DNA from: an uncultured Eubacteriales bacterium
GTDB taxonomy: Bacteria; Bacillota; Clostridia; Peptostreptococcales; Anaerovoracaceae
Reading direction: 5' to 3'
Length of the DNA stretch: 55,412 bases
NCBI GenBank assembly: GCA_902775345.1
Contig: CACYLW010000011.1
Coordinates: forward strand, 1 to 55,412
Program-made: the position numbers and the translations under genes
Shown: piece after piece, positions 32,217 through 51,605 of the stretch
Position numbering within the stretch: the stretch's first letter is position 1
How the letters are laid out: the number at the start of each line of letters is the position of its first letter
Notes under the pieces: model-generated
What the model was told of the DNA's origin: nothing
The model's input: the letters and a program-made list of their open reading frames with translations, nothing else
The model's database searches: none

Positions 32217-32232
32217 CTCTCTGACACTTTTT
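32192..32232. terminator. Bidirectional terminator overlapping the RHH stop codon
   Basis: AAAAAGTGTCAGAGAGC, 7-nt loop including the TAG stop, and the exact complement ending TTTTT. It also ends the minus-strand transcript of the hydrolase at 32245. Confidence 0.9.
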
Positions 32233-32244
32233 ATTTAAGCCTTT

Positions 32245-33943: not shown

Positions 33944-33959
33944 CTGCTGAACCGTGTTG

Positions 33960-34505
33960 TTACAGGGCAGCCGCTACTTCTTCCTTTACTTTTGCCATGT
34001 CGAAGGTCGGCTCGAATCTTGCGATGACCTTACCTTCCCTGTCTACGAGGAACTTGGTGAAATTCCATCCGATATACGTCTTGTCGCCGTATTTCTTGTT
34101 GTTTGCTGCAGCGAATTTGTTGAGCGCCGCATTTTTGAGACCCTTTCCGAATCCGTTGAACGGTATCTCGGATGCCAGATATGCAAAGAGAGGATCAGCT
34201 GTCTCGCCGTTAACATCGATCTTTGCGAACTGAGGGAACTCAGTACCGAACTTCAGCGTGCAGAACTCATGGATCTCATCGTCCGTGCCCGGAGCCTGAT
34301 CCGCAAACTGGTTGCACGGGAAGTCGAGGATCTCAAATCCCTTGTCCCTGAACTCAGCATACATGACCTCGAGCGGTTCATAGTGAGGTGTGAATCCGCA
34401 GCCTGTCGCGGTGTTTACTATAAGAAGGACTTTTCCTTCATAGTCCTTAAGGCACACATCATTTCCGAATCTGTCTTTTACTGTGAAATCATAAACCGTA
34501 CTCAT
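33960..34505 (-). CDS. Glutathione-peroxidase-family thiol peroxidase
   Basis: A 181-aa cytoplasmic peroxidase. The peroxidatic residue is Cys36 in VNTATGCGFTPHY, where vertebrate enzymes have selenocysteine. The catalytic partners Gln66 (FPCNQFADQ) and Trp (GWNFTKFLV) are present. Bacterial members usually use thioredoxin and reduce H2O2 or organic hydroperoxides. The start at 34505 has GGGAGG upstream; the in-frame ATG 42 nt earlier would place that site inside the gene. A candidate operator and extended -10 lie at 34543-34564, so it may start its own transcript (GPx, EamA, hydrolase). Oxidative-stress defence fits an anaerobe exposed to air. Confidence 0.93.
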   Translation of the reverse strand: MSTVYDFTVKDRFGNDVCLKDYEGKVLLIVNTATGCGFTPHYEPLEVMYAEFRDKGFEILDFPCNQFADQAPGTDDEIHEFCTLKFGTEFPQFAKIDVNGETADPLFAYLASEIPFNGFGKGLKNAALNKFAAANNKKYGDKTYIGWNFTKFLVDREGKVIARFEPTFDMAKVKEEVAAAL

Positions 34506-34542
34506 TGTCTGTTGTTCCTCCCTTTTTCTATTGTTAACTGTA

Positions 34543-34564
34543 AGCAAATAATACCATATTTGCT
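34543..34564 (-). promoter_or_regulatory. Promoter with overlapping 22-bp inverted repeat upstream of GPx
   Basis: AGCAAAT-N8-ATTTGCT is a perfect inverted repeat and contains an extended -10 TGGTATTAT (TATTAT at 34548-34553 on the minus strand). The repeat would block the promoter if bound by a repressor. There is no U-tract, so it is not a terminator. Confidence 0.5.
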
Positions 34565-34569
34565 CTGTT

Positions 34570-35781
34570 TTATACCGCTCTTTTTCCGGATGTCTTTATG
34601 GTTGCAGCGTAAGCGCTGTTGCAGAGTCCGAGAACCGCTGAAAGCATGAACAGCGTCTCTATGCCGAGCGTCTTCCAGATCCAGCCTCCGAACAGAGCGA
34701 CCAGAATGGTTATGAGATGGTTGACGGATACTCCCGTGGATATCGTGGCACGCATCTCTTCGGCACTGTCCGATATGTCCTGAACGTAGACGTTCGAAGC
34801 CATGGAGGCAAGCGATATCACCGAATCAAGAACATAGTTGATGCAGCACACCACGAACGCGATGTTCATCGGGAATATGTGATGCGCGAAACCATAGAAG
34901 AAGCACACGATCACAAGGATGAGCGTATCGCTTATCATCACGATCTTATATCCGAATCTGTCTATTATCTTTCCTACCAGCGGTGAAGCGAAGAAGCCGC
35001 ATACCGATGACACCGCGAAGAGTATGCTTATGGTCATCGCGTTGGCGCCATAGAACAGCACCAGCACGTAAGGTCCGAAAGTGAAGAACACCTGCTTGCG
35101 TGCGCCGTAGAACACCTCAAGCATGTAAAACTTGGAAAACTTCTTCCGGAAATAGAATCTGTGCTTCGCGGAATCGGCGGCACTCGTGCCGGTCATCCTG
35201 AAGGTCGACACCGTGCCGATACCGATGATCGCAGCGCTGACGGCAAATACCGTCTTGAAGAGATGCTCCGTGCTTTCGAGTCTCCAGAACACCACGATGA
35301 TGACCGCGTAACCGGCAAGCATTCCCACCTGGTAAACGGCATTCTGAAGTCCCAGGGCCTCTCCCCCGCGTCCCTCTTTTGAGTACTGAAGGGTCAGCGT
35401 ATTGCGCATCCCAAGCTGTATGTGATCTCCGAGCGAGAATATGAATATGCAGAGGATCACAAGCACCTTGTCTGCCGGCACCAGCGACTGTGCAGCCAGT
35501 CCGATAAGCATTATGACCGCACCGATGCGGTATATCCTTTCGGCAGACAACGTATACAGTGCAGCGAGCACAAAAACCAATGCCAGGCCCGGCATCTCCC
35601 GGAAGAATTCCGAAACGCCCTTATCCCAGCCTGACATCGATACCACCTCAGCCAGATAGTTGTCAATAACGCCCTTATACATACCGTACGCCAGCGCGAA
35701 GGTCAGCATCGATATGAAAAACGCCTTATATCCCGACTCCTGCCTGAATACTTCTTTCAAACGGTCATAAGTCCTGTTCAC
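34570..35781 (-). CDS. Major facilitator superfamily transporter
   Basis: A 403-aa membrane protein with about 12 helices. A charged inter-helix loop near residues 270-280 (GKIIDRFGYKIVM) is MFS-like (G-x-x-x-D-R-x-G). It starts 9 bp after the GPH symporter stop and so belongs to the same transcript. Membership of a catabolic cluster suggests efflux of a product or uptake of a second compound. I cannot assign a substrate. Confidence 0.85.
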   Translation of the reverse strand: MNRTYDRLKEVFRQESGYKAFFISMLTFALAYGMYKGVIDNYLAEVVSMSGWDKGVSEFFREMPGLALVFVLAALYTLSAERIYRIGAVIMLIGLAAQSLVPADKVLVILCIFIFSLGDHIQLGMRNTLTLQYSKEGRGGEALGLQNAVYQVGMLAGYAVIIVVFWRLESTEHLFKTVFAVSAAIIGIGTVSTFRMTGTSAADSAKHRFYFRKKFSKFYMLEVFYGARKQVFFTFGPYVLVLFYGANAMTISILFAVSSVCGFFASPLVGKIIDRFGYKIVMISDTLILVIVCFFYGFAHHIFPMNIAFVVCCINYVLDSVISLASMASNVYVQDISDSAEEMRATISTGVSVNHLITILVALFGGWIWKTLGIETLFMLSAVLGLCNSAYAATIKTSGKRAV

Positions 35782-35790
35782 CTTATATTA

Positions 35791-37290
35791 TTACAGGCTT
35801 TTCTTCAGGCCTGCATTTTCCTTGCTCCAGAGTCTGTCGTATGAGAAACCTGTCACTTTCTCGAGCATGCGTTTCTCCTCATCCGTGGTGACTCCGCTTT
35901 CCTCACCCTTCCTGCGGGCAACTTCCTTCTGCACAAGGTCAAACTCAGTGCTCGTCATAGGGAAGAGCACCGCTACGATGAGCAGCAGCGCCGAGAGGAT
36001 GGCCGGCGCCAGTATGAAGCATACGCCTATTCCATGCTGGGTCGCGGCGCTCTGTGCCATGCCGGCGTTCGCGAGCGCTTCGTCATAGTGTACGGCCGAA
36101 AGCATGAATCCGATAAGCGCAGCCGAGATACCCGAAGCTATCTTCCTGATGAACGTAGCCATGCTGGATACGATACCAGGTCTGCGGATCGATGTTATGA
36201 GTTCATCGACGTCTGTCATGTCTGCCATGATCGCAAAGATACCTGTGAGCGAGCCCGCGTTGCCCAGTCCGATCAGAGCCGCAAGAGCAAGCACCGGCGC
36301 AAGCGATACTCCGCTGTGCGAGAACCCGAACAGCCCAAGCACACCGATCAGCCTTACAGGAGCAGCGATCATGATCGCCATCTTCTTCGAGGTCTTTCTC
36401 ATGACCGGTCCGAAGATAAGCATTCCGATGAGCTGGGCTATCATGAGGACTGCCAGGATCGGCAGATAGTAATTGACTTTGTCATTGTACGCGTCGAGCG
36501 TGTGCTTTACATAGTAGACGGCCATACCCGAGATGAAGTCCATGCCGCCCTGTCCGAAGAGGTAGAGCCCCAGGAACAGCAGGAACGAACGGCTTCTGAA
36601 CACGCTTGCAGCCTGTGTGAAACTCTCGCCCAGCGTCGTCCTGACCGGTTCCTTCTGTTTTTCCCATGTCCCGAAGAAAACCGTTATCGATACAACGAAG
36701 AACAGCACGCCGAATATGAGTCCGCACTTCATGTATAATGCAGGCTCATTGGTAGGATTGATGATCATTCCCGGTACCAAACCGCAGATCATCGCTCCGA
36801 GAGTCGAGAATATCATACGCATGTTGGAGAATTTCGCGCGCATCCTGTAATCGTCCATCATGTCCGGAAGGAGACCGTTGTACGGCACGCTCAGGACCGT
36901 GAAGGCTGTATTGAACAGGCAGTACATTACCATGTAGAATACGTACTTCGCAGTCATGGACGGCGCATTTATATTCATCCAGATAAGCACAAAAGTGATT
37001 GCCGAAGCAAAACTGCCGACGAGGATGTAAAACCTCTTGGCTCCGAACTTCGAATGCGTCCTCTCGGTGATGTTGCCCATTATAGGGTCAGTGATGGCGT
37101 CCCAGATCTTTCCGACCATAGGGATGGTTCCTGCGAGAGCCGCATTCATTCCCATGGCGTCTGTGAGAAATACGATGAAGAACGCGTTGATGATAACGAA
37201 GCATCCTCCGCCGAAGATCTCTCCGACTCCATAAGTCAGTCTGTTAAAAAAGCCGTATGCCGGCTTTCTGCCTGCGATTTCCTCTTTCAT
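35791..37290 (-). CDS. GPH-family (glycoside-pentoside-hexuronide:cation) symporter
   Basis: A 499-aa membrane protein with 12 helices. Its N-terminus YGFFNRLTYGVGEIFGGGCF and first-loop segment WDAITDPIMGNITERT are the MFS_2/GPH hallmarks seen in MelB, XynB-type and glucuronide carriers. Members bring in glycosides with Na+ or H+. GAGGGACG precedes the ATG. It starts a transcript of its own at an operator-covered promoter (37332-37362), 133 bp after the esterase gene. The co-encoded hydrolases point to an imported glycoside or glycerol conjugate as substrate. Confidence 0.92.
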   Translation of the reverse strand: MKEEIAGRKPAYGFFNRLTYGVGEIFGGGCFVIINAFFIVFLTDAMGMNAALAGTIPMVGKIWDAITDPIMGNITERTHSKFGAKRFYILVGSFASAITFVLIWMNINAPSMTAKYVFYMVMYCLFNTAFTVLSVPYNGLLPDMMDDYRMRAKFSNMRMIFSTLGAMICGLVPGMIINPTNEPALYMKCGLIFGVLFFVVSITVFFGTWEKQKEPVRTTLGESFTQAASVFRSRSFLLFLGLYLFGQGGMDFISGMAVYYVKHTLDAYNDKVNYYLPILAVLMIAQLIGMLIFGPVMRKTSKKMAIMIAAPVRLIGVLGLFGFSHSGVSLAPVLALAALIGLGNAGSLTGIFAIMADMTDVDELITSIRRPGIVSSMATFIRKIASGISAALIGFMLSAVHYDEALANAGMAQSAATQHGIGVCFILAPAILSALLLIVAVLFPMTSTEFDLVQKEVARRKGEESGVTTDEEKRMLEKVTGFSYDRLWSKENAGLKKSL

Positions 37291-37331
37291 GTGATCGTCC
37301 CTCTCTCAGATAAAACTCTGCTGCTTTATCA

Positions 37332-37362
37332 ATATTAGCATAGTCATGCCTGCTAAATCCAA
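37332..37362 (-). promoter_or_regulatory. GPH symporter promoter with palindromic operator
   Basis: Minus strand extended -10 TGCTAATAT (TAATAT at 37332-37337) and -35 TTGGAT (37357-37362), 19-nt spacing. The perfect inverted repeat TTAGCA-N10-TGCTAA (37335-37356) fills the spacer and overlaps the -10. It looks like a repressor site, for example for a LacI or GntR family protein, which is not encoded here. Confidence 0.55.
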
Positions 37363-37423
37363 AACAAAGATGTATGGCTGCACGCCGAAGATGCAGCATA
37401 TAAGTTTAGGTACTGATGAATTT

Positions 37424-38767
37424 TTACATTGGCCCCTTGTCGCGCAGGAAGCTGTTCCACTCCTTGAGGCGGCATTGTGCCGGACCGATCAGGCCGCCGC
37501 CTTTTCCGTCGAAAAGCCGGAACCTGCTGTTTCTTTTGCTGATCGCGGGCCAGTCCTGCAGGCCTGCGCCGTTAGGATCTCCGGTCTTTACAAAGTTCGC
37601 CACATAGTCCGCCATCTCGTCCTTGAGCCTGCGGTCGTTCTCATCGAACGGGCGCCAGCTCTTGTCAAAGTTTCCGAACATGTACCAGAGATCCGCCGCA
37701 TGATATGCCTTGAACCTGTCTCCCGGCGGAGTCCTGTCAAACATGTAGCCCCATACCGGTGACTGACCGCGTTTCGCATGCAGCTTTCCCAGGCTCAGAG
37801 CGAGGTCGTATATGAGGTAAGGCATGAAGTCCTGCGACGTGACACCGGCTATTACCGGCACATCGAGGTATGAGCCCTCCTTCATTATCTTTGACGGCAT
37901 CTTCGGTATTATGGTGCCGTCGATGCCCGGCTGCTGAGTGCGCACGCTTCCGATCTCCCTGCCTGTGGCATACCAGGCATCAAATATCGTCTGATCAGGC
38001 AGCGTCCTGAATTCCTCTTCAGTCTCCGCCCCCGCGCGCTCCCTTACCTTTGACCAGAACTTTTCGTCTGATTCCTCCGGAGTGTAAGGGCCCGCAAAGT
38101 CAGGTACACTGCCGGCACCCGACATCATGACTGCGCCCTTGACAACATCCTTGAGCATCTGTGTGTAAAGCAGATCCATGACAGCCATCGCCCCGGCAGA
38201 CTGTCCCATTATCGTGATACGTTCAGGGTCACCGCCGAAATCCGCTATGTGTTCCTTGATCCAGCGCAGACCAAACACCATGTCGTGGAGCCCGTAGTTG
38301 CCGGATTTATAAAGGCCGAACACATTGAGTCTGTATCCGAGCGAAACATATACGATACCGCGTCTTGCGTATTCAGTGCTCGTTCCGTACGGGTGCTCTC
38401 CCACATTTCCGTTCTCGAATGAGCCTCCGTGGATGAAAACCAGCACCGGATCCTTCCGGGCTTCCTCCCTCGCGATGACATTGAGCGTCATCGGGGACTC
38501 TGCGAATTTCCAGTCCGGAATATCCTGGCCGTATCTGAACTCGCTGTGATAAAACCAGTAGCGTCCGATGGATTCCTTATGGTACGCCCTGAACTGGAAG
38601 CAGTCTGTCTCAGGCCCGGTCGCATCAAACTCTTCCCACGCCGGATACGGTTTAGGGAGTTCGAAGCGCTCCGTGACCGCGTACGGTATGCCGCGGAACA
38701 TGCGTATTCCGTTTTCTTCGGTACCGGTGACCTTGCCGAGCCCGGTCTCTATGGTTACTTTTTTCAT
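37424..38767 (-). CDS. Type-B carboxylesterase (PnbA-like)
   Basis: A 447-aa cytoplasmic alpha/beta hydrolase, at the short end for the family. It shows RGIPYA at the N-terminus, the oxyanion motif FIHGGSFENG, the nucleophile Ser190 in IMGQSAGAMA, and a probable catalytic His in FKAYHAADLWYMFGNF. The partner region GNYGLHDMVFGLRWI aligns with the family's GNxGLxDQ segment. There is no signal peptide, so the substrate is hydrolysed inside the cell; acetyl or aryl esters of imported glycosides are plausible. The gene starts 18 bp after the GDPD stop. Confidence 0.9.
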   Translation of the reverse strand: MKKVTIETGLGKVTGTEENGIRMFRGIPYAVTERFELPKPYPAWEEFDATGPETDCFQFRAYHKESIGRYWFYHSEFRYGQDIPDWKFAESPMTLNVIAREEARKDPVLVFIHGGSFENGNVGEHPYGTSTEYARRGIVYVSLGYRLNVFGLYKSGNYGLHDMVFGLRWIKEHIADFGGDPERITIMGQSAGAMAVMDLLYTQMLKDVVKGAVMMSGAGSVPDFAGPYTPEESDEKFWSKVRERAGAETEEEFRTLPDQTIFDAWYATGREIGSVRTQQPGIDGTIIPKMPSKIMKEGSYLDVPVIAGVTSQDFMPYLIYDLALSLGKLHAKRGQSPVWGYMFDRTPPGDRFKAYHAADLWYMFGNFDKSWRPFDENDRRLKDEMADYVANFVKTGDPNGAGLQDWPAISKRNSRFRLFDGKGGGLIGPAQCRLKEWNSFLRDKGPM

Positions 38768-38785
38768 CGGTCTCCTTTAGCTGCG

Positions 38786-39838
38786 TTAATATGCTGCGTC
38801 TCTTCCGCTTTCAGACTTTTTGTCTCCGGCTTCAAAATGATCCGGTTCGAGGTGATAAGGCAGATCCACCGCTCTTGCAGGAAGCAGTTTCTCGCCTTTT
38901 TTCTCCAGGAACTCTCTCAGCGCCCACGGTCTGTCCGTGATGATGCCGTCGACGCCCATCTCATACATGATCTCAAAATCGTCCACGAAGTTCACAGTCC
39001 ACGGCACGACTTTCATTCCCAGTCCGTGCGCCTCTTCTGTTAGTTCCTTGGTTATCTCCTTAAAGTACGGGCTTACATCGTCGATCCCGAGCGAATGCGC
39101 CGCCCGCACCGGATCCCCGCCAAAGTCACGGATGTCTATGCCCGCAAGCCATGGTGACGGTTCGTCCCTGTCAAGCCACAGCGTGGTCGCGTCCGCCGTT
39201 CCCCAGGACGGCTGCTCACTGTAGAGCGCTATCGTCCTGATGCCCGGATCGAGTTCTTTCATTTTCACGAGCACAAGCCAGTCGAATGACTGCAGTATCA
39301 CCTGTTCACGGAAACCGAATTCATTCACAAGAGACAGAAACTCTCTGAGCAGTTTGTCGTAGTCGGGATTCTTTTCGTATCTGGTTCCGAGCGCGGGATC
39401 CGGATAGGCCTTAGCCTCTATGCTCATCCTGATGTCTTCGTTGCCGCTGTCCCTGACCAGCTCAAACATCTGGCGCAGCGACGGTATGAACGCATCCGTC
39501 TGCACCTGTGTGCGTCCGTGCAGTTCATGGTATTCGACGGACGGATCCATGCGGCCGACATTGAACGACTGCACTTCAGCCAGCGTCATGTCGTGGATAT
39601 AGCGGTCATGGCCCTCGATGCGTCTGCCTTCGCTGTCTGTTGTCAGGTCAGGATTCAGCGCCGGATTGTGCGACATCACTATCCGGCCGTCTCCGGTCAG
39701 CTGCATGTCGCATTCGATGGTCATCGCGCCGTTCTCAAGCGAATACTGATAAGACCAGAGCGTGTTCTCGGGACGCGCGTCCCTTCCGCCCCTGTGAAAC
39801 TCCATGTCGTAATATTTTACTGATTCTTCATTTACCAT
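38786..39838 (-). CDS. Glycerophosphodiester phosphodiesterase
   Basis: A 350-aa TIM-barrel enzyme. The catalytic entry FHRGGRDARPENT and the metal-binding TIECDMQLTGDGRIVMSHNP segment are the GDPD hallmarks, and the C-terminal part has WTVNFVDDFEIMYEMGVDGI. It hydrolyses glycerophosphodiesters to glycerol 3-phosphate plus an alcohol. There is no signal peptide, unlike secreted GlpQ. The ATG overlaps the end of the beta-helix gene by 7 bp and has no clear ribosome site, so translation is probably coupled. Its placement between a carbohydrate-type beta-helix protein and an esterase is unusual. Confidence 0.92.
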   Translation of the reverse strand: MVNEESVKYYDMEFHRGGRDARPENTLWSYQYSLENGAMTIECDMQLTGDGRIVMSHNPALNPDLTTDSEGRRIEGHDRYIHDMTLAEVQSFNVGRMDPSVEYHELHGRTQVQTDAFIPSLRQMFELVRDSGNEDIRMSIEAKAYPDPALGTRYEKNPDYDKLLREFLSLVNEFGFREQVILQSFDWLVLVKMKELDPGIRTIALYSEQPSWGTADATTLWLDRDEPSPWLAGIDIRDFGGDPVRAAHSLGIDDVSPYFKEITKELTEEAHGLGMKVVPWTVNFVDDFEIMYEMGVDGIITDRPWALREFLEKKGEKLLPARAVDLPYHLEPDHFEAGDKKSESGRDAAY

Positions 39839-41748
39839 TTTTTCAATATCTGTTTTCTGCCATCCGTTATGATCTCATGTTTCAGATCGGCAAACGGTCC
39901 CGGCACTATTTTACCTGTACGTTCAACACCGTAGAAATCAGTGTCAAGAACTATATCCGAACCGTCCGGCGACTCGAAACGCTGCTCAGGTTCGAAAGCC
40001 TTGCCAAGTACGTCCGAGCTGATCATCCTGCACTCACCTTTCTTCTCATGTCTGCAGGCTCTGGCTCCATTCAGATAGATGTTGCCTTCTGCCCAGACCG
40101 GCAGATGCCCGAAGTGCGCTTTCTCAAGTTCCGCCATGTCCGCCGGCCGTGAGAAATCGAACTGCGAATACCACTCCTCAAAAGTCGGATATCCGTCGAA
40201 TACCCAGGTTCCGACCCTGCGGTTCTCATACTCCTTTCCGTCATCTGTATCGTGCAGTATCTCCGCATCTTCTGACGGCCAGGTCTGTATGAATATGTTG
40301 TTGCAGAACCTGTTGTCGCCGTGCAGTATCGTCATGAATCCCATGACCTCTGTGCGGTGCGGTATGTGATAAGGCGTGTACCGCCAGTCCGTGCCGGCTC
40401 CCACGCAGGTAAAGGCTCCGCAGATGAGATTATGTACCATAGCTATTCCCTGAGCAGCGAACCTGAGGCTCACATCAGAGAACAGTATGTTGTTGTCGAT
40501 CAGTGTCGGACCGTGGCTCACCTCGATGAACAGATCCTGCGACATCATGCCGCCATTCAGCTGCCTGACACCCTTCGGCCGCTGGTTGTCATGCAGGTAA
40601 TTGCAGCTTATCCTTGTTCCCTGGGCTTCCCAGTCACACCATATGCCCATCGTGCAGTGGTGGATGTGGTTCCTCCTGATGATCACATCTATGGCTGCAT
40701 GCAGCTTTATGCCCGCGATCTCAGCTCCGCCCAGTTCCATCATGTTATTGATATGATGGATGTGATTGTCTTCGATTATGCTGAAGACGCCGCCCATGCG
40801 TCCGATGATGCCGCCCTGCTGGCAGTGGTGTATGTTGTTGCGCCGTATGATATGTCCGCCGATATTCTCCTTCAGCCATCCGTGATACTGTCCGCGGCAC
40901 ACGGCTTCCCTTTCCATCTGCGTAGGGCTTTTAACGTATTTTGTAGTAAAGTAATTGTCATTATCCGGATCATAGTATCTTCCTAGCGAGATCCCTGCGC
41001 ACTTGCTGTTTGCAATCTCGCAGTCTTCTATGATCCAGCCCCTGCTCCAGTGCGGTCCTATCATACCATCCTGAAAAGCAGCCGGAGGCGCCCATGTCGT
41101 GGCGGCTTTCTCCACCCTGAAGCCTCTGACAGTGATGCAGTTTATGCCCGTTTCAGACGGCCAGAAACATTCTCTTCTGACATTTATCTCAACGTTTTCA
41201 CGGTTCGGATCCGCGCCCTGAAAGTTCGCGTATATCACGGTCTCGTCAAGCTGTTCATCCTGCTCCGTATACCATTTCAGCCTCGAGTTGCCCGGGTCCC
41301 AGCTGACATCGCTGATCTCTCCGCGCATGCACTCCTCAATATCCGAGGTCTCATACAAAGCCTCATCGTTGAGATACACGCAGCCTGTGTGCTTGTCCGC
41401 TCTGGCAAAATACCAGTCGCCATACACGAGCGTAGTGTATGGATTGTAGTCCCCGAACAGGCTGTTTCCGATCCTTGTTACCCAGACATTGTCTGAATAC
41501 TTTTCCCAGCCGGAGATCTGCTCGGCTCCCGTGATCACTGCAGCGAGAGGCTCGGTACTTACGTAGGTGATCCTTTCATCCTCAGTGCCGGAGTTTACCG
41601 GATCTACCGTTTCGCGGTAGATACCCGGGCATACATGGACTGTATCTCCCGGTTTTGCAGACACGGCCGCCTCGCTTATGCTTCTGAACGGGCTTGCCTG
41701 GCTGCCGTCGCCATGAGGTTTCGCATTTATATCTACGTAAATATCCAT
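39832..41748 (-). CDS. Right-handed parallel beta-helix protein, putative glycan-active enzyme
   Basis: A 638-aa protein. The N-terminus YVDINAKPHGDGSQASPF is the DUF1565-like entry, followed by the GIYRETV turn. From about residue 200 to 480 there are repeated coils such as IIRRNNIHHCQQGGI, IIEDNHIHHI and VIIRRNHIHHCTMGI. It resembles the beta-helix glycoside hydrolases and lyases (for example GH141 or pectate-lyase-like proteins). I could not confirm catalytic residues. There is no signal peptide, which is unusual for this class. A start at ATG 41748 with GGTG upstream is preferred to GTG 41757, which overlaps the upstream stop. Confidence 0.82.
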   Translation of the reverse strand: MDIYVDINAKPHGDGSQASPFRSISEAAVSAKPGDTVHVCPGIYRETVDPVNSGTEDERITYVSTEPLAAVITGAEQISGWEKYSDNVWVTRIGNSLFGDYNPYTTLVYGDWYFARADKHTGCVYLNDEALYETSDIEECMRGEISDVSWDPGNSRLKWYTEQDEQLDETVIYANFQGADPNRENVEINVRRECFWPSETGINCITVRGFRVEKAATTWAPPAAFQDGMIGPHWSRGWIIEDCEIANSKCAGISLGRYYDPDNDNYFTTKYVKSPTQMEREAVCRGQYHGWLKENIGGHIIRRNNIHHCQQGGIIGRMGGVFSIIEDNHIHHINNMMELGGAEIAGIKLHAAIDVIIRRNHIHHCTMGIWCDWEAQGTRISCNYLHDNQRPKGVRQLNGGMMSQDLFIEVSHGPTLIDNNILFSDVSLRFAAQGIAMVHNLICGAFTCVGAGTDWRYTPYHIPHRTEVMGFMTILHGDNRFCNNIFIQTWPSEDAEILHDTDDGKEYENRRVGTWVFDGYPTFEEWYSQFDFSRPADMAELEKAHFGHLPVWAEGNIYLNGARACRHEKKGECRMISSDVLGKAFEPEQRFESPDGSDIVLDTDFYGVERTGKIVPGPFADLKHEIITDGRKQILKKW

Positions 41749-41753
41749 TTCAT

Positions 41754-43382
41754 TCACCAGTTTATGCCGCTGACCGGCTTGGTCTGTTCAGAAACGCACA
41801 CGGTCTCACGGCAGATATCTCTTTCCGAATACTCTTTTCCTATGCCTTCTCCGATGTTAGGTCCGAAAATATTGCAGCAGATAATATCGATCACGAAGAG
41901 CGTTATCAGTATGGAGCATATGACCTTTGCCTTCTTGTCACCGAGTCTGTGCACAAGGTTCTTGATAAGCGGCCCCACAATGAATATTCCCAGGAAACCG
42001 CCTATGTCGAACGCGATAAGACCTGCCAGGCACACTCTTCCGTTCAGGTTCAGCTGCATGTCATGGTAGTCCCAGTACGACCTGTTGCTGAAGAACTCGA
42101 TTACGAAGCTGGTGAAATATTCCAGTATGCCGCACAGTATCATTGTCGAGATGAAGAGTTTTAGTTTGTGGTGCTTGAGTTTGTTAAGCAAGGCTATGAT
42201 GAACACTCCTCCCGCACCGTATATCGGAAGCCACGGGCCGTACATGACACCTCTGTTAACGAAGACCTGTTCCTGTACAAGATGCAGACCGACCTCCCAC
42301 AGCCAGCCGATAAAGCAGAAAATGAAGAACATAGCTATGTAGTCAATGATCCGGTATTCATCCGCGGCATCAAAGCTTGAATTCCTGATGTGCATGTCAG
42401 GCATCAGATATTCCGGATGGATGTCCTCCGGCTTTTCTCCGGCTTTGACCCTGTCAACATATGCGCAGCCGTCAAATGCAGGCTCTATGAACTTGCTCCT
42501 GTCGATGTCAGGTCTCTGCCTGAGAACGGAATAGACTTCAGCCCCGACTGTGTAATCGATCGGAAGCATGATGAAAAGGTCCGTGAACGGCATGATAAAC
42601 CCCGGTACAAGGAGATAAAGGTATGACATGTCGATCAGGAACATTTTCCACTTGTACCCATATGTCATCTCCTTTGACAGATTCCTGGCTTCCTTCCAGC
42701 TCAGGTCAGGGTTTTCAGCTAATATATAAGGCACGCAGAAGTACTGATAGTGCTTTATGATGCCTCCTATGACGGTGATCCACCATAAGGCTATCACTAA
42801 AACATAAATGCTCATCACGCCTATCACATGCAGGAATTTATGGTTGCCGAAAGGGGCAAGGATACGCCGTATCTTGACATCCCTCTGGAACCTGTTTTCA
42901 AGAACCGCCCTGTCAAGTCCGACAGCCAGTGTTTTCTTGAAAAACGAGGTGACGCCTTTATACAGCACCATGAACAGCATGATAAAGACGAAGACCTCTC
43001 CCAGGTTTCGTTCCATGTATGCATGGTTCATGGCGAAAAGGTTGATAAGCCAGCTGTATGTGGACAATATGCCCCAGACGACGTCTACGACAATTTCCTC
43101 TCTTACAAACTCAGGCAGGGACTGTACAAGCGGGGTATTTCTGACGTAGTCAAGAATGCTGAGTATGTCGTCTTTCTGCACGACCCCCCTGCCGTATTTC
43201 ATGTCCAGATTGTTTATGAGGCCGGAAGCGTTAAACTCCAGTATTCCGACAAATGAGAATATAAAGATTATGAGAACGAGTACGAAATACGGTTTTACCC
43301 CCTTGGTAAAAATCGTCCGCCTGACTCTGCTTCTGATCTCTCTGAACCCCAATCTGAATTCAGCTGTTTCACTTTGCATCAT
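41754..43382 (-). CDS. DUF975-like and PF06541-like fused membrane protein
   Basis: A 542-aa membrane protein made of two parts. Residues 1 to about 290 look like DUF975, starting FRLGFREIRSRVRR and including YILAENPDLSWKEARNLS. Residues about 325-530 look like the 'putative ABC transporter permease' family PF06541, with FFIFCFIGWLWEVGLH, GPWLPIYGAGGV and the WDYHDMQLNLNGRVCL segment. Each half is usually a separate protein. The function of either is unproven, and no ATPase is near. GGAGG lies 6 nt before the ATG at 43382. It follows the phosphoesterase by 26 bp and ends at the start of the beta-helix gene. Confidence 0.82.
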   Translation of the reverse strand: MMQSETAEFRLGFREIRSRVRRTIFTKGVKPYFVLVLIIFIFSFVGILEFNASGLINNLDMKYGRGVVQKDDILSILDYVRNTPLVQSLPEFVREEIVVDVVWGILSTYSWLINLFAMNHAYMERNLGEVFVFIMLFMVLYKGVTSFFKKTLAVGLDRAVLENRFQRDVKIRRILAPFGNHKFLHVIGVMSIYVLVIALWWITVIGGIIKHYQYFCVPYILAENPDLSWKEARNLSKEMTYGYKWKMFLIDMSYLYLLVPGFIMPFTDLFIMLPIDYTVGAEVYSVLRQRPDIDRSKFIEPAFDGCAYVDRVKAGEKPEDIHPEYLMPDMHIRNSSFDAADEYRIIDYIAMFFIFCFIGWLWEVGLHLVQEQVFVNRGVMYGPWLPIYGAGGVFIIALLNKLKHHKLKLFISTMILCGILEYFTSFVIEFFSNRSYWDYHDMQLNLNGRVCLAGLIAFDIGGFLGIFIVGPLIKNLVHRLGDKKAKVICSILITLFVIDIICCNIFGPNIGEGIGKEYSERDICRETVCVSEQTKPVSGINW

Positions 43383-43408
43383 GAATATCCTCCGATGTAC
43401 CAGCAATA

Positions 43409-44590
43409 CTATTTAAACGTGACATTGATCACTGTAACTTCGCTGTCAGTTCCGAAACGGATCGGCGGGCCGTAATAACCGACTCCGGCAGTTACGACCG
43501 TTGTTGCTCCATACAGTTCTTTCACTCCGTATGCATTTTCGTTAAAGAACGGAACGACGAGATTTCCCGGGAATATCTGACCGTTATGCGTGTGTCCGCA
43601 GAGGATCAGATCCGCTCCGTTTTCAGCCAGGTTTTCGAAATCTATCGGCTCATGCTGAAGAACAACGATCGGCTTTGACTTGTCTGCATCCTTTAAAAGC
43701 ACATCTGCGCTCAGCCTGTCGGCAGTACCGTCGCCGGCCTTTTCTCCGTCGATCCTTCCGGAAAGAGTGAACAGTCCGTCACCGATCTCAACATTTTCAT
43801 CGTACAGCACTCTGAATCCCGAATCGGCAAAGAACTTCTCCATGTCAGGAGTTCTGAACGCTTCGGAAATAGGTGAGATGGAAAAACCGCCGATAAGATT
43901 TTCATCCACGTCATGATTTCCGCACACAGCGTAAACTCCGTACTTCGCATGCATCCTGCTGAGAGCGGCTGAGTATTTCTCAGGATCCCTTAAACCGTCA
44001 AAGTTGCTTGTGAAAATATCGCCTGCGATAACAACGATGTCAGGATCGCACTCATTTGTCAGCTCAACCATTTTCTCCGTAGCCTTTACGTCTGAATTGA
44101 CGCTGAGATGCAGATCCGCAAGCAGGACTATTTTTACCTTTTCACCCTTAGCAGCCTCATTTGCCAGTTCAACATCATAGTTGACGAGTTTTGGCTGCTG
44201 AGCGTGAACGAGGCCGTATGCCAGTATGATGAACGCCGCAATGAAAGCGAACTGGAACGCCTTCCCCACAAGCGACTTATCGTCTCTATTCTTTTTCTTA
44301 ATGATGATCTGGCAGGCAGGGAAAAGCAGCAGGACAAAGATGGAATAAAACATGAAGAAGCCGAGCCAGACATTACCCAGTCCCATGCAGAGGAACTTGA
44401 ACTGCGATTTAGGAAGATATGCGCCCAGCACAGGAACGGCTGCCAGAAGCACATAAATGATGATCCTGATCACTCTGGTCTTGCTTCCGATCCTGCTGAA
44501 TCTCCTGCTGTTTTTAACGGAATATTCCGTTAGAACGGAAACCACAGCCTGGGCCAGAACATAAAGAACGAGAAAAATTTTACCAAACAT
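43409..44590 (-). CDS. Membrane-anchored metallophosphoesterase
   Basis: A 393-aa calcineurin-like phosphoesterase. Four N-terminal membrane helices (about 4-22, 42-60, 70-94 and 108-128) precede the catalytic domain. Metal-binding motifs are in order: LADLHL, VIAGDIF, VCGNHD, LQHEP and CGHTHNGQ. The family acts on phosphodiesters and phosphomonoesters; related YkuE/LpxH-type proteins work at the membrane surface. GGAG precedes the ATG. A -10 TGCTATAAT (44687-44692) upstream suggests it begins a transcript. It lies next to GDPD and beta-helix genes, which supports a role in phospho-glycan or phospholipid-derived substrates, but this is inference. Confidence 0.92.
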   Translation of the reverse strand: MFGKIFLVLYVLAQAVVSVLTEYSVKNSRRFSRIGSKTRVIRIIIYVLLAAVPVLGAYLPKSQFKFLCMGLGNVWLGFFMFYSIFVLLLFPACQIIIKKKNRDDKSLVGKAFQFAFIAAFIILAYGLVHAQQPKLVNYDVELANEAAKGEKVKIVLLADLHLSVNSDVKATEKMVELTNECDPDIVVIAGDIFTSNFDGLRDPEKYSAALSRMHAKYGVYAVCGNHDVDENLIGGFSISPISEAFRTPDMEKFFADSGFRVLYDENVEIGDGLFTLSGRIDGEKAGDGTADRLSADVLLKDADKSKPIVVLQHEPIDFENLAENGADLILCGHTHNGQIFPGNLVVPFFNENAYGVKELYGATTVVTAGVGYYGPPIRFGTDSEVTVINVTFK

Positions 44591-44683
44591 ACTTACTCCA
44601 AAAATTTACAGTATCTTATTGAAAAAATGGTGGCCGGCGTTTGCGGTGTACTGCACAAACAATCAGCCCCCAATGGTAGCAAA

Positions 44684-44695
44684 AAAATTATAGCA
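44684..44695 (-). promoter_or_regulatory. Promoter of the metallophosphoesterase operon
   Basis: Minus strand extended -10 TGCTATAAT (TATAAT at 44687-44692) with no good -35. The leader is about 95 nt, in a 124-bp gap that holds no gene. Confidence 0.5.
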
Positions 44696-44714
44696 TATAC
44701 CGGGTTAAGTTCGT

Positions 44715-46406
44715 TTACCTAATCGTCGACCCTCTTTTGAGTTCAAGAAGCATGCATTGCCAGGCCTGCAGCTGTAAACGGCCGTGACGGGTCGTATTGC
44801 ATGGATCCATATTGTCAAGAAGGACCCTGTATTCACAGCCGGTATCGATCTCTTCAGATTCTGACTTGAGGTTTGCCAGGATCAGCAGGACCCGGTCGGC
44901 TGTGCGGTAATATGCCAGCAGCCCTTTACGGTCTTCATACGCCGGTTCAAATTCCCCCCATACCAGGGTCTCGCGGTATTCCGGGGAATTTCTCAGGGCG
45001 ATCAGCTGTCTGTAAAAACTGTAAACGGAATCCGGACGTTCAGTCTGCTCATTCACATTTATCAGTTTATGATCCGGATTGACCGGAAGCCATGGTTCCG
45101 CCTCGCTGAAGCCTGCATTATGACCGGCACTCCACTGCATCGGCGTTCTGGCATTATCTCTTGAATACAGACTCACCACTTTCAGAGCTTCCTCTTCACT
45201 CAGCCCCGCTTCAACAGACACACGGTACTCATCAATGGAGCCGATATCATCGAATTCATCAGGTGAGCTGAACACGGTGTTTTCCATGCCTATCTCCTGC
45301 CCCTGATAAATAAAAGGCAGACCTCTGAGCATGAAGTATGCCAGAGCCAGACACTTTTTGCCTTCTTCCGTCCTGCCGGATTCAGGAAGGTAATAGCTTG
45401 CCGCCCGCGGCCTGTCATGGTTTTCGATCACATTTGAGAAAAAACCCGTATCTCCTATTCTTTTCTGTGCGGCAAATACGCAGCGTTTATAATCATCAAC
45501 ACCGATCCTCCTGTGGGCATAACAGCCGAGGCGGCTCTGCCCCTCCACGACATGCGAGAAGTCGAACATAGAAGAGAAGTATCCGTTTTCTCCTATGAAA
45601 TCCTCCAGTTCGTCATACTTCTCATTGAACACTTCGCCTATAGTAAGTGCTTTATATGGTGCAAAGGCCACGTCTCTCATTTCACCGAGGAATTCTCCGA
45701 TACCCTCTGCATTCTCAAGCATTGCGCTTATATCGCACAGGCCGTCTTCTCTTCCGGCTGCATAATTCCTGAAAGGAAGCGCCTTTTTGATGTCGATTAT
45801 GGCATCGATCCTGAACCCTGCAATGCCTTTTTCCATCCACCACTTTATGATGTTATACACTTCTTCGCGCACTTCAGGGTTTTCCCAGTTCAGATCAGGC
45901 TGCTTTTTATGGAACAGATGGAGATAGCACTTGTCCGGATGTCCCGGAAGCGGTTCCCATACAGACCCGCCGAAAGCAGACCGCCAGTTGCACGGTACTC
46001 CGCCAGACGGATCCCTGTCTTCGATGTAGAAGTACTTTCCGTATCTGCCGTCAGGATCCTCACATGCCTTTCTGAACCACTCATGCTCGTCCGAGCAGTG
46101 ATTCACCACCAGATCCATCAGTATGTACATGCCACGCCCGCGGGCCTCCCTGATCAGCTGATCCATGTCGTCCATGGTGCCGAATCTCGGGTCCACGTTA
46201 TAGTAATCGGAAATATCGTAGCCCTGGTCGGCCCACGGAGACGGATAACACGGCGAGATCCATATTATGTCAACGCCAAGCGACTTCAGATAATCAAGCC
46301 GGGAAATGATGCCCTGTATGTCTCCGATACCATCCCCGTTTGAATCGCAGTAACTTTTCGGATATATCTGATATGCTGTTTTGTCGTGCCACCACTTCTT
46401 TGTCAT
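44715..46406 (-). CDS. GH13 alpha-glucosidase
   Basis: A 563-aa cytoplasmic enzyme of the oligo-1,6-glucosidase/alpha-glucosidase group. The nucleophile is Asp201 (GFRIDAI), the acid/base Glu258 (LTIGEVF) and the third carboxylate Asp331 (NVIENHD). Conserved region I is DLVVNHCSDEHEW and the N-terminal segment is WWHDKTAYQIYPKSY. The residue after the nucleophile is Ala; by family rules, alpha-1,6-specific members usually have Val and alpha-1,4-preferring ones Thr or Ala, so maltose-type activity is likely. The start overlaps the HAD gene's end by 4 bp (ATGA). There is no signal peptide. Confidence 0.94.
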   Translation of the reverse strand: MTKKWWHDKTAYQIYPKSYCDSNGDGIGDIQGIISRLDYLKSLGVDIIWISPCYPSPWADQGYDISDYYNVDPRFGTMDDMDQLIREARGRGMYILMDLVVNHCSDEHEWFRKACEDPDGRYGKYFYIEDRDPSGGVPCNWRSAFGGSVWEPLPGHPDKCYLHLFHKKQPDLNWENPEVREEVYNIIKWWMEKGIAGFRIDAIIDIKKALPFRNYAAGREDGLCDISAMLENAEGIGEFLGEMRDVAFAPYKALTIGEVFNEKYDELEDFIGENGYFSSMFDFSHVVEGQSRLGCYAHRRIGVDDYKRCVFAAQKRIGDTGFFSNVIENHDRPRAASYYLPESGRTEEGKKCLALAYFMLRGLPFIYQGQEIGMENTVFSSPDEFDDIGSIDEYRVSVEAGLSEEEALKVVSLYSRDNARTPMQWSAGHNAGFSEAEPWLPVNPDHKLINVNEQTERPDSVYSFYRQLIALRNSPEYRETLVWGEFEPAYEDRKGLLAYYRTADRVLLILANLKSESEEIDTGCEYRVLLDNMDPCNTTRHGRLQLQAWQCMLLELKRGSTIR

Positions 46407-47059
46407 TTTGCTTCCTTCTGAATGTTAATAAGATCTGATGGTGCTGCCAGTAAGTAATCAGCGCCCGCATTCATCAGTTCATCTTTGCTTCCGTATCCCC
46501 ACAGCACTCCCGCACAGTGAAGACTGTTCGCTTTCGCCCCGTCAATATCCTGATCACGGTCTCCGACCATCAGAACAGACTCCATATCTATATCTCCCAA
46601 CTCATCAATAAGATGCCTGATAACATCTGCTTTTCTGCTGATGCGTCCATCCATCGTTGCTGCTCCGATATAGTCAAAGTACTGATAAAGGCCGAAATGC
46701 TCGAGTATCTGAACCGAAAATTCATACGGCTTGGATGTGGAAAGCGCAATTACCGCATTACCGGCCTTCAGCTCTCCGAGCATCTCCGGTATTCCTTTAT
46801 ATACCTTGTTTTCAAAGATCCCGTCTGCGCGGAAATACTCTCTGTAATACTCAACGGCCTGAAGCGCCTGCTCTTCAGTAAAGTCAAAGTACTTTCTGAA
46901 TGAGTCTGTAAGCGGCGGGCCGATAAACGGATAAAGCTCGCTTCTGTCGGATACATGGATGCCGAACTTTTCCAGCGCATGCATGACAGAATTGGTTATT
47001 CCGATGCCCGGATCCGTCAGAGTTCCGTCAAGATCAAATAAATAATACTTGTATTCCAT
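46403..47059 (-). CDS. HAD-superfamily phosphatase (Gph/PgmB-like)
   Basis: A 218-aa cytoplasmic enzyme of HAD subfamily IA. Motif I is FDLDGTLTD (about 8-16), motif II ALSTSKP, and motif III/IV Lys plus MVGDRDQDIDGAK. A helical cap lies between residues 20 and 90. It may dephosphorylate phosphoglycolate, a sugar phosphate or a nucleotide; Gph/PpaX-like is the closest general match. It overlaps the GH13 gene by 4 bp and follows the 159-aa membrane protein after 5 bp. Coupling to an alpha-glucosidase suggests a sugar-phosphate substrate, a hypothesis only. Confidence 0.9.
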   Translation of the reverse strand: MEYKYYLFDLDGTLTDPGIGITNSVMHALEKFGIHVSDRSELYPFIGPPLTDSFRKYFDFTEEQALQAVEYYREYFRADGIFENKVYKGIPEMLGELKAGNAVIALSTSKPYEFSVQILEHFGLYQYFDYIGAATMDGRISRKADVIRHLIDELGDIDMESVLMVGDRDQDIDGAKANSLHCAGVLWGYGSKDELMNAGADYLLAAPSDLINIQKEAK

Positions 47060-47064
47060 TATCT

Positions 47065-47544
47065 CTATCCCGCCTCCTTTACTTCCAGTCTGATATCGCT
47101 GATAGGCTTCAGCAGCTTTTTCAGGTTTTTGATGTCGTGATTGAACGTAGTTTCTATCGTGACGGCATCTTTGATGCCCATTGTACCCAGAAGCGAAATG
47201 ATCGTCAGAAACAGCTCATCCATGTATGCTGCAAGCATTATGCCGAGGGCACAGAATAAGACGCCGAGAATACCTTCCCATATCATTCTGCGGTTGTTCC
47301 TGGCGATCTGCCTGTCAAACTCCGCAATATCTCTTTCAACAGCATCATGAAGGACGCTCCGGAACCTGTCCGCATCTATCGGGTTTTCCGTAATGATCTG
47401 AAGAGTGTCATGAGCGTGTTTCGAGGCCTCAAGCGGCGAACAATACGATTTCAGATAGTGATAAACTCCCTCATTTATCCTCGTCCGGGAAGGATCATAT
47501 GGATTGTACAAATCGGATTCATTTTTTACCAGCAATTGGATCAT
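47065..47544 (-). CDS. Uncharacterised small membrane protein
   Basis: A 159-aa protein of unknown function. A soluble N-terminal part (1-85) with many acidic and basic residues is followed by one hairpin of two membrane helices (about 87-105 and 109-128) and a 30-residue C-terminal helix. GGAGCC precedes the ATG. It ends 5 bp before the HAD phosphatase, so it shares that transcript. I do not recognise a named family. Confidence 0.7.
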   Translation of the reverse strand: MIQLLVKNESDLYNPYDPSRTRINEGVYHYLKSYCSPLEASKHAHDTLQIITENPIDADRFRSVLHDAVERDIAEFDRQIARNNRRMIWEGILGVLFCALGIMLAAYMDELFLTIISLLGTMGIKDAVTIETTFNHDIKNLKKLLKPISDIRLEVKEAG

Positions 47545-47605
47545 TGTTATTCAGGCTCCTTTCTTTCTCCCATATTATTGATCTCTTTTGTCCCGTCCGT
47601 CTTTA

Positions 47606-48721
47606 TCATAACAATTCACGTATCAGGTCAGCTCCGCCGGGTGCTATGCACGGTATCGTTTTGCCTAAAACGCGCACATCTTCAAAAAAGCCTTCGTCCA
47701 GCAGGAGCCGCTTCCCGTCGGTCGCAGTGAGCACTGCAGATCCGTCCGGCTCAAACAGGCACGGAAATATCCTGAGTTCACCGTATTTCTCGCTGTAATA
47801 GCTCCTGACACCATCCGCGTATCTGTGTTTCGCCTCATATCGCGCGTGCTTTATCCACGCGAGAAACTCATCGACATGGTCGATATCATAAGCAAGGTCT
47901 ATTCGCTTATAAGAATAATGCTTGTCGCCTCTTATCAGGCCGAGAGCCCACCTTCCGCACACCCAGAATGAGACCTTCATGCTTTTTGAATCGTTCAGCA
48001 TGCTGAAAAGGTCGTACCAGGTGACTACTTCCTTGCGGCTCGTACTGTACACGGATATGCACAGCATCAGAAACGCCGCAGTATAAATGGTAGTCGTTAC
48101 GAAATAAGTATACTTGTTGTTGGAAAGCGAGACCCGCAGAAGGCCGGTGATATCCGAGATAGCGAACACGATGCCTGCCAGGCAGAAAAACCGGTTCGAC
48201 AGGGAAAGCACCATTGTCGCAGTGACAATAACGGCATATAACGACCCTACTATAATGAGCCTCATGTCTTTCACGAAACACATGAGCAGCGTTATCGCCG
48301 CCAGGGCGCACAGTATCAGCGTTATGTTCTGCCATCTGTGAATGTATGTAGTCTCAAGTATGGCCCACATCATGAACAGATGACCAACGCAATACAGCAC
48401 AGCTCCCACGGGATACGAGAACATGACCGCGATGTCGCCGAGCGTGTACCAGATCAGCGTCCACATGAGGATCCTGTTTCTTTTTGTCGGATAGTACTTC
48501 GTCCCGAGCATGGCTGCCGCGATCCAGAATATATCCGTTCCGGTCTTCAGGAAGATCCTCAGCGTACGGTATGCTCTTTCCGGAGAAGAGAGCAGTATAA
48601 CGCTGTTTATGATGAACAGCAGCATTCCTATGGCAAACAGGGCTTCAGTTACATGTGCCGCAGACCGATTCCCATCAAAATGAACTCTCAGTTTATCAGT
48701 GATCTTTCCGCTTTTCTGCAT
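47606..48721 (-). CDS. YhhN-like membrane protein with C-terminal extension
   Basis: A 371-aa protein. The first 220 residues contain seven or eight membrane helices with the YhhN/TMEM86-like pattern: KTGTDIFWIAAAML, TLGDIAVMFSYPVGAV and CVGHLFMMWAI. YhhN/TMEM86 members include lysoplasmalogenases, which cleave vinyl-ether lipids. Clostridia make plasmalogens anaerobically, so such an enzyme would make sense. The last 140 residues form a soluble domain, from about KVSFWVCGRWALGL to the C-terminus, which I cannot name. The gene has a promoter and a palindrome (48742-48815) and probably begins its own transcript. Confidence 0.65.
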   Translation of the reverse strand: MQKSGKITDKLRVHFDGNRSAAHVTEALFAIGMLLFIINSVILLSSPERAYRTLRIFLKTGTDIFWIAAAMLGTKYYPTKRNRILMWTLIWYTLGDIAVMFSYPVGAVLYCVGHLFMMWAILETTYIHRWQNITLILCALAAITLLMCFVKDMRLIIVGSLYAVIVTATMVLSLSNRFFCLAGIVFAISDITGLLRVSLSNNKYTYFVTTTIYTAAFLMLCISVYSTSRKEVVTWYDLFSMLNDSKSMKVSFWVCGRWALGLIRGDKHYSYKRIDLAYDIDHVDEFLAWIKHARYEAKHRYADGVRSYYSEKYGELRIFPCLFEPDGSAVLTATDGKRLLLDEGFFEDVRVLGKTIPCIAPGGADLIRELL

Positions 48722-48741
48722 GAATAAACGGCTCCACCATT

Positions 48742-48815
48742 ATGTGATATCACATTACCGCTGTCTCGTTTTTAAAAGCTGTAATTATATTACACCAGTA
48801 CCGAACAGCCGACAA
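48742..48815 (-). promoter_or_regulatory. Promoter and palindrome upstream of the YhhN-like gene
   Basis: Minus strand -35 TTGTCG (48810-48815), 17-nt spacer, -10 TAATAT (48787-48792). Downstream, between the start site and the gene, is the perfect 14-bp palindrome ATGTGATATCACAT (48742-48755). Its core TGATATCA is the same as in the operator repeats at 30776-30797. Confidence 0.6.
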
Positions 48816-48845
48816 TTGTGTGTTTGGGCAGATTTGCCGGACTTC

Positions 48846-48866
48846 AAAAGCCCCCTTCCGGGGGCT
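48846..48866 (-). terminator. Terminator of the two-component operon
   Basis: Minus strand: AGCCCCCGGAAGGGGGCT then TTTT, 45 nt after the kinase stop. Confidence 0.85.
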
Positions 48867-48911
48867 CATCGCGGACTGTGTTCCGTAATGTGTTTTTTAT
48901 GGTTTCTCCAA

Positions 48912-50938: not shown

Positions 50939-51012
50939 GTTACATGGCCCTCTCTCCGTATTGCACAGAACTCATCGGCAGGGAAGCATCGCGCCTCCCT
51001 TCGGCTGCAAAA

Positions 51013-51109: not shown

Positions 51110-51220
51110 CTTAATTTTGGGTCATATACTACAACCATCAGATGAAAACAGAGCACCGGAAAACGAAGACCGGTCCTTACAGAATAAAATTGGTACTCAT
51201 GAATAAAGGAGGAAAAGAAA

Positions 51221-51499: not shown

Positions 51500-51527
51500 A
51501 GGCCCTCACCACAGTCACGCATAACGG

Positions 51528-51568: not shown

Positions 51569-51605
51569 TTTCCGGTTCTGCTTTTCTCCGTCTATTGTTC
51601 CGCTT

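Follow-up and report, generated by a model that had tools for sequence, protein, structure and literature searches.

Gene content of the locus

The window, a 55,412-nucleotide stretch (all of contig CACYLW010000011.1, assembly GCA_902775345.1) of an uncultured Eubacteriales genome comprising 2.25 Mb in 26 contigs at 90.5% completeness, holds nine minus-strand genes at positions 34570-47059. A first-pass annotation had described eight of them as one intracellular pathway, namely a GPH symporter, an MFS carrier, a type-B carboxylesterase, a glycerophosphodiesterase (GDPD), a beta-helix glycan-type enzyme, a metallophosphoesterase, a GH13 glucosidase and a HAD phosphatase. All eight were recovered with the same boundaries on the minus strand; a ninth gene had been overlooked, which encodes a DUF975/CmpB membrane protein and separates the beta-helix gene from that of the metallophosphoesterase. 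In related genomes, above-chance conservation was observed only for the esterase, the GPH symporter, the GDPD and, less strictly, the beta-helix enzyme, which belongs to glycoside hydrolase family 120 (GH120). We propose with moderate confidence that these four genes (41757 down to 35791) form a catabolic operon, GH120-GDPD-esterase-GPH, which serves import and cytosolic hydrolysis in a Mogibacterium-like ruminant-gut lineage:

39832..41757, minus strand: GH120 beta-xylosidase-like protein, 641 residues, right-handed beta-helix (PF21258, 4.6e-41); variable member of the core
38786..39838, minus strand: GDPD of a distinct subfamily (PF03009, 2.4e-36); core
37424..38767, minus strand: type-B carboxylesterase, 447 residues (PF00135, 1.9e-73); core
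35791..37290, minus strand: GPH-family sugar:cation symporter (TIGR00792, 233.9 bits); core

From 47059 down to 34570 the order is HAD, GH13, metallophosphoesterase, DUF975/CmpB, GH120, GDPD, esterase, GPH and MFS, with successive gaps of -4, 124, 2, -4, -7, 18, 133 and 9 nt. The tight spacing reported earlier thus holds for the pairs HAD/GH13, GH120/GDPD, GDPD/esterase and GPH/MFS, but the run is interrupted twice, by the 124 nt between GH13 and metallophosphoesterase and the 133 nt between esterase and GPH. Three further genes follow downstream at equally short distances (22, 16 and -11 nt), the first two presumably GPx-like and EamA-like and the third alpha/beta-hydrolase-like by family search, and same-strand genes with similar gaps continue on both sides of the region. 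Close spacing alone therefore marks no pathway, and the ends of the cluster are arbitrary. A search of positions 32000-52000 for structured RNA control elements gave zero Rfam matches at gathering score. The absence of signals from the hydrolases was confirmed for the esterase, GDPD, GH120, GH13 and HAD proteins, which have zero hydrophobic segments in a 19-residue Kyte-Doolittle window, but not for the metallophosphoesterase.

Conservation within and outside the genus

The distribution of the core genes was analyzed in 47 genomes of the genus, 36 of which were searched for GH120. Core esterases were defined by a score of at least 848 bits. Ten weaker matches (680-720 bits), of which two fall in genomes lacking a core copy, were treated as paralogs and excluded, giving 15 rather than 17 esterase-bearing genomes. 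The GPH gene (E<=1e-150) occurs in 14 of the 47 genomes and the GDPD gene in 12 (the window, L055-L064 and L075; G and L numbers denote genomes and fetched loci), in every case within the esterase-bearing 15 (Fisher test, 4e-11 and 9e-9, respectively). By depositors' titles, seven of the 11 other loci come from Mogibacterium sp. of sheep or goat gut and four from 'uncultured Clostridiales' RUG metagenome-assembled genomes (MAGs). The GDPD gene adjoins the esterase in all 12 genomes with a gap of 21-27 nt, the esterase adjoins GPH in 13 of 14 with a gap of 71-312 nt (in G329 they lie on separate contigs), and GH120 stands directly upstream of GDPD in eight of 12 (the window, L055, L056, L057, L058, L060, L061 and L075). 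Esterase and GPH are found without this GDPD in G024, G030 and G333, and esterase and GDPD without GPH in G022. The nucleus of the unit is the esterase with GPH; GDPD is a less constant member, and GH120 less constant still. In L057, which is the same place as G014:C32, GH120 and GDPD form one open frame of 968 residues with a clean junction.

Flanking genes change while the core block stays, and the relatives compared are not recent copies: synonymous differences per site between the window and its relatives amount to 0.55-0.72 for esterase, GPH, GDPD and GH120, which is near saturation. The ratio of nonsynonymous to synonymous substitution rates (dN/dS), calculated between the window and relatives for matches above 70% identity only, is 0.02-0.10 in 36 of 38 comparisons of the four genes: 0.02-0.04 for GPH (n=9) and for the esterase in nine of 11, 0.05-0.10 for GDPD (n=11) and 0.05-0.07 for GH120 (n=7), with TrpB as a yardstick at 0.01-0.05 (n=6). 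These values suggest that the four-gene block has been kept by selection and not by recency.

The order of the block is conserved beyond close strains, across near-saturated synonymous sites, but only inside the genus; none of 15 GH120 regions and none of ten GDPD loci outside it, three of the latter only ~5 kb long, preserves the arrangement. Among 297 genomes sampled evenly from the order, the genome of the window included, the GDPD was detected in four (E<=1e-50) and the esterase in five (E<=1e-80).

At one genus locus (L059:7876-14387) the GDPD-esterase pair is followed not by GPH, which lies on another contig, but by a gene MATE-like by sequence and genes for GH36, a GH27-like alpha-galactosidase and an arabinofuranosidase; this setting counts in favour of the proposed operon.

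The GH120 enzyme

The beta-helix glycan-type enzyme of the first-pass annotation can be specified as a relative of the GH120 beta-xylosidases. It contains the family-specific insertion domain (PF21258) and matches PDB 3VST, XylC of Thermoanaerobacterium saccharolyticum, over residues 7-626 (E=3.6e-135); no other distinct PDB sequence reaches E<=0.001. Outside the genus, GH120 was found in 16 genomes, and 15 regions from 14 of them were fetched, leaving out G444, G664 and the second hits of G535 and G555. We aligned the window protein with the 15 proteins of these regions and with 11 of the 12 genus regions, leaving out L036. Sites are numbered as in L122, a close relative of XylC.

The window protein retains Asp at position 382 and Glu at position 405, which we take to be the XylC catalytic residues. 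In this family an Asp serves as nucleophile and a Glu as acid/base (PMC6887791). The alignment also demonstrated two differences from the characterized enzymes. Position 352, which is His in XylC and Trp (Trp-362) in BaXylB of Bifidobacterium adolescentis (PMC6887791), is Ala in the window protein and in all 11 aligned genus relatives, and the spacing between the two catalytic positions is 36 rather than 22 residues, i.e. a 14-residue insert. The combination of Ala with 36 residues is common to ten of the 11 genus relatives and to L129-L132 from outside; L035 has Ala with 42 residues, L133 Ala with 23, and the divergent L135 Ser with 23. We know of no characterized member of this Ala/36 subclade. 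Membership in the family is unaffected by the substitution, which nevertheless lowers the probability of an ordinary xylosidase specificity.

The first-pass annotation had regarded the missing signal of the beta-helix enzyme as unusual. In fact 14 of the 15 outside GH120 proteins have no strongly hydrophobic N-terminus (maximal 15-residue mean <=1.29), the exception being L135 (2.87), so the missing signal is ordinary in this family. The window enzyme thus resembles XylC and BaXylB in the insertion domain, the Asp/Glu pair and the signal-less N-terminus, and differs from them in Ala-352, the 36-residue spacing and the GDPD, esterase and GPH genes that surround it. Near several of the outside GH120 genes there are arabinofuranosidase-, GH43- and ABC-like genes, as judged by the starts of their open reading frames and not by family search.

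The GDPD, the esterase and the symporter

Residues H15, R16, E42, D44, H57, E141 and K143 of the GDPD are invariant in all 20 aligned rows; those of the HR, ExD, H and E motifs we take to be catalytic. The predicted structure (mean predicted local distance difference test score, pLDDT, 83.9, with a low-confidence C-terminal tail) is closest in a Foldseek search to 3L12 (2.3e-28), followed by 2PZ0 (4.6e-21) and GlpQ of Bacillus subtilis, 5T9B (5.8e-20), and a phage K domain is also among its structural neighbours. Alike in fold and catalytic-type residues, the window protein differs from 3L12, 2PZ0 and GlpQ in its extra tail, its sugar-operon setting, its single fusion to GH120 and the lack of a signal. 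The tail (PYHLEPDH ... DAAY; window 38789-38860) lies beyond the Pfam GDPD match and is kept across several bacterial families: 18 of the 20 rows have a tail that ends in DAAY or a near variant, and L070 and L071 do not. A beta-1,3(4)-glucanase (7WW4/7WWC), a multidomain chain that is not a GH120 enzyme, matches the GDPD profile partly and weakly (E=5.2e-4) and also by fold; from the positions of the matches, this chain possibly joins a GDPD-like region with the glucanase.

Outside the genus, relatives of the GDPD were found at ten loci with 56-70% identity, labelled Bacillota, Lachnospiraceae, Clostridiales, Erysipelotrichaceae, Clostridia, Coriobacteriaceae, Atopobiaceae and Acholeplasmatales; a Saprospiraceae protein of 26% identity (L076) was set aside. 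The N-terminus is strongly hydrophobic in six of the nine outside proteins aligned (L065-L068, L073 and L074; 15-residue mean 2.1-3.1), and not so in L069, L070, L072 and the window protein. Because most of these relatives carry such a segment and the window protein has none, the latter looks cytosolic by derivation. Viral carriage of the GDPD was considered and rejected, as 17 pattern matches yielded zero relatives in viral contigs.

Two unusual GDPD frames were noticed. In L062:8921-11041 the GDPD ends a 706-residue frame, the first 353 residues of which match no Pfam or NCBIfam model; moreover, L062 (2898-4679) and L053 (3885-5666) each have a further GDPD-like gene, distant at 24% and encoding 593 residues, which is situated a few genes upstream of the core esterase.

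In the esterase, S190, D313 and H356, which presumably form the Ser-acid-His triad, align with those of Est50 (2OGT) and are invariant in all 12 aligned rows; the fold model was discarded (mean pLDDT 45). A second esterase copy, 64% and 60% identical to that of the window in G000:C1:79605-80933 (L051:9606-10937) and G016:C51 (L052:9235-10566), respectively, has another conserved neighbourhood, where the adjacent genes resemble the two parts of aconitase X by sequence start only. This suggests that the esterase family may serve more than one pathway. The symporter passes TIGR00792 narrowly (233.9 bits against a cut-off of 231.35); the family takes its name from the import of glycosides, pentosides and hexuronides.

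These data bear on the possibility that GDPD and esterase are a salvage pair for lipid remnants, one deacylating them and the other cleaving them to glycerol-3-phosphate, with GH120 and GPH as chance neighbours. The fold and residues of the GDPD match those of glycerophosphodiesterases, lipases such as the bile-salt-activated enzyme belong to the carboxylesterase superfamily, GDPD and esterase are the tightest pair of the block, and the genome contains a glycerol kinase (708.5 bits, above cut-off); relatives of the GDPD elsewhere often look exported and were not seen with the esterase. On the other hand, esterase and GPH are associated still more strongly (14 of 14) and remain together in the three genomes without this GDPD, GPH transporters are sugar carriers, and the GDPD is once fused to GH120. 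We consider this explanation improbable.

Fate of the released sugar

If GH120 released xylose, a route for its utilization would be expected, as in an ordinary operon for acylated (acetylated or feruloylated) xylo-oligosaccharides in which the GDPD is a passenger for lipid head-group salvage. Both GH120 enzymes counted as characterized in a 2019 review are beta-xylosidases (PMC6887791), and the name of the GPH family covers the import of pentosides. A close precedent is the rumen bacterium Butyrivibrio proteoclasticus, for which the passages seen describe proteomic support for cytosolic esterases and a beta-xylosidase, in a model where these act with debranching enzymes on imported decorated oligosaccharides (PMC5217386). 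That system shares with the proposed unit the logic of import followed by cytosolic esterase and beta-xylosidase action. It differs in its parts, which in the same passages are ABC importers, GH3, GH43, GH51 and GH67 enzymes, the esterases Est1E and Est2A and a xylulokinase, with no GDPD partner mentioned there (PMC5217386), and also in that the window species shows no xylose isomerase.

Xylose isomerase (TIGR02630) was not found in the genome of the window or in any of the 14 genus genomes with GH120 (13 plus G330/L056; completeness 77-95%), and it occurs in one of the 47 genus genomes, G015, itself without a GH120 match. Outside the genus, nine of 16 GH120 genomes have the isomerase and seven do not, so its absence from the genus is suggestive only. 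Matches to the wider family PF01261, of unclassified type and in frames of 280-336 residues, are present in six of 13 genomes. The xylulokinase-like FGGY protein scores 291.5 bits, below the XylB cut-off of 380.25. No other xylan enzyme or sugar ABC importer was detected among the window genes searched, the GH10 and GH43 xylanases of the genome not having been searched for.

Released xylose would thus have no obvious standard route, and glycerol-3-phosphate plausibly would have one. The altered position and insert of GH120, taken together with the lack of xylose isomerase, make plain feeding on xylobiose doubtful, and the constant position of the GDPD beside the esterase (12 of 12) with its one fusion to GH120 speaks against a mere passenger. 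An ordinary xylo-oligosaccharide operon is therefore possible, though rather unlikely.

Proposed function of the four-gene unit

Under the preferred reading of a four-gene catabolic operon, the GPH symporter would import a short decorated (esterified) beta-glycoside, the cytosolic esterase would take off an acyl group, GH120 would take off a non-reducing sugar of beta-xylosyl type, and the cytosolic GDPD would cut a phosphodiester, yielding glycerol-3-phosphate or another phosphomonoester for central metabolism. We infer that the four proteins share one substrate, as well as its identity, the order of the reactions and a single transcript. The import and cytosolic hydrolysis postulated earlier are accordingly kept for GPH, esterase, GDPD and GH120; gene order withdraws MFS, metallophosphoesterase, GH13 and HAD from the scheme. 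The earlier candidates, glucosyl groups and teichoic-acid fragments, are left without their chief support, as the core glycosidase is GH120 and not GH13.

Several observations weigh against the proposed operon. The Fisher values overstate independence, the species being related, and many of the genomes are incomplete MAGs. The GDPD has no adjacent GH120 in four of 12 genomes, and five of the 13 GH120 genomes among the 36 searched are without this GDPD, and in G003 it is encoded on a separate contig. The esterase evolves faster at two of the four loci that lack GH120 (dN/dS 0.13 in L062 and 0.16 in L063, against 0.04 in L059 and 0.02 in L064). The GH120::GDPD fusion is on a single MAG contig, where an assembly or sequencing error is possible, and the 71-312 nt between esterase and GPH could hold a separate promoter. 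Outside the genus, GDPD, core esterase and GPH are present in none of the 15 GH120 regions, nor is the core esterase in any of the ten loci of GDPD relatives, of which L067, L073 and L074 cover only ~5 kb. Finally, GDPDs are normally read as enzymes of lipid head-group or teichoic-acid diesters and not of sugar nutrients.

A more specific and speculative version, which we regard as unlikely, is that the substrate is a phosphodiester-linked acylated beta-glycoside not described before. One imported molecule would be attacked successively by the GH120 with Ala-352 and the insert and by the cytosolic GDPD, which in one species would be a single fused bifunctional enzyme, and the cell would gain its carbon as glycerol-3-phosphate or the aglycone, not as xylose. 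This would explain why the GH120 carriers of the genus are without xylose isomerase.

The logic of import and cytosolic hydrolysis has support in rumen Butyrivibrio (PMC5217386) and so is not new; the unusual parts of the unit are the GDPD partner and the GH120 variant. The grouping of a GDPD with a sugar symporter and with a beta-xylosidase-type enzyme, to which it is adjacent and in one case fused, suggests that the diet or microbiota of ruminants contains a phosphodiester carried on a sugar. No described degradation route for such a compound was found in the literature searched, which covered few subscription papers; nor did we find literature joining GH120 with Mogibacterium or, by title, relevant work on GDPD-xylosidase operons, GDPD-carboxylesterase-GPH sets or fusions of GDPD with glycoside hydrolases. 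The genus is usually called asaccharolytic. Four compact enzymes and one fusion protein offer a handle on the pathway, and the finding would be modest if the substrate were an ordinary acylated xylo-oligosaccharide.

Neighbouring genes

The five other genes of the region look like neighbours of the unit:

34570..35781, minus strand: MFS carrier (PF07690); window-specific neighbour, outside the unit
41754..43406 (likely start 43382), minus strand: DUF975 + ABC_trans_CmpB membrane protein (PF06541, 1.1e-41; PF06161, 3.1e-11); accessory neighbour
43409..44590, minus strand: membrane-anchored metallophosphoesterase (PF00149, 6.1e-17); accessory neighbour
44715..46406, minus strand: GH13 of alpha-glucosidase/oligo-1,6-glucosidase type (PF00128, 2.2e-128); loose neighbour
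46403..47059, minus strand: HAD-family phosphatase (PF13419, 1.9e-29); loose neighbour

The eight originally named genes do not stay together at the genus loci. MFS is present at one of the 12 GDPD loci, the window; a search of the 11 others, confined to the fetched regions, gave no match. The metallophosphoesterase and CmpB genes are at the locus in three of 12 (the window, L056 and L060), with a 42-residue remnant in L055, and the slot upstream of GH120 is filled by other genes in L057, L058, L061 and L075. GH13 occurs at seven loci and HAD at five, the contigs ending too early to tell in L057 and L060 for both and in L061 for HAD. GH13 never directly adjoins GH120 at the six other loci that bear it: trpB intervenes in four (L055, L056, L058 and L061), another gene in L075, and at L064 GH120 is missing. 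Downstream of GPH, where the genes of relatives were named by sequence start or family search, MFS and the GPx-like gene of the window are replaced by an aspartokinase-like gene (L060), a homocysteine-methyltransferase-like gene (L057) or FAD oxidoreductases (L055 and L058).

Hydropathy analysis revealed four N-terminal transmembrane-like segments in the metallophosphoesterase, so the absence of a signal does not imply a cytosolic location; by the positive-inside rule, its catalytic domain would presumably face out. The common strand, the short gaps and the structural similarity of the GDPD to GlpQ and the phage K domain would agree with all eight genes acting jointly on a glycosylated glycerophosphate, such as a fragment of teichoic acid or glycolipid, or on an acylated plant glucoside. 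Such joint action is nonetheless very improbable given the variable gene order, the membrane anchor of the metallophosphoesterase and the identity of the core glycosidase, and a single eight-gene pathway was rejected on gene order.

The GH13 protein matches PDB 5ZCB (3.1e-134) and 1UOK (2.1e-126). Its assignment as a phosphotrehalase was rejected (501.5 bits, cut-off 799.05), as was a maltose/beta-phosphoglucomutase pair of GH13 and HAD (26.2 bits for HAD, cut-off 189.4); the HAD protein is below every equivalog cut-off listed.

Just upstream of GH120 in two loci (L061:5220-5795 and L075:4991-5623), minus-strand genes encode distant relatives (27-29%) of a 159-residue window protein (47065-47544). 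A further window frame, 47606-48721, encodes 371 residues and combines a membrane half that resembles YhhN weakly (below cut-off) with a C-terminal match to the aminoglycoside-2''-adenylyltransferase family PF10706 (8.3e-12); pieces of this protein recur upstream of the GDPD in L062.

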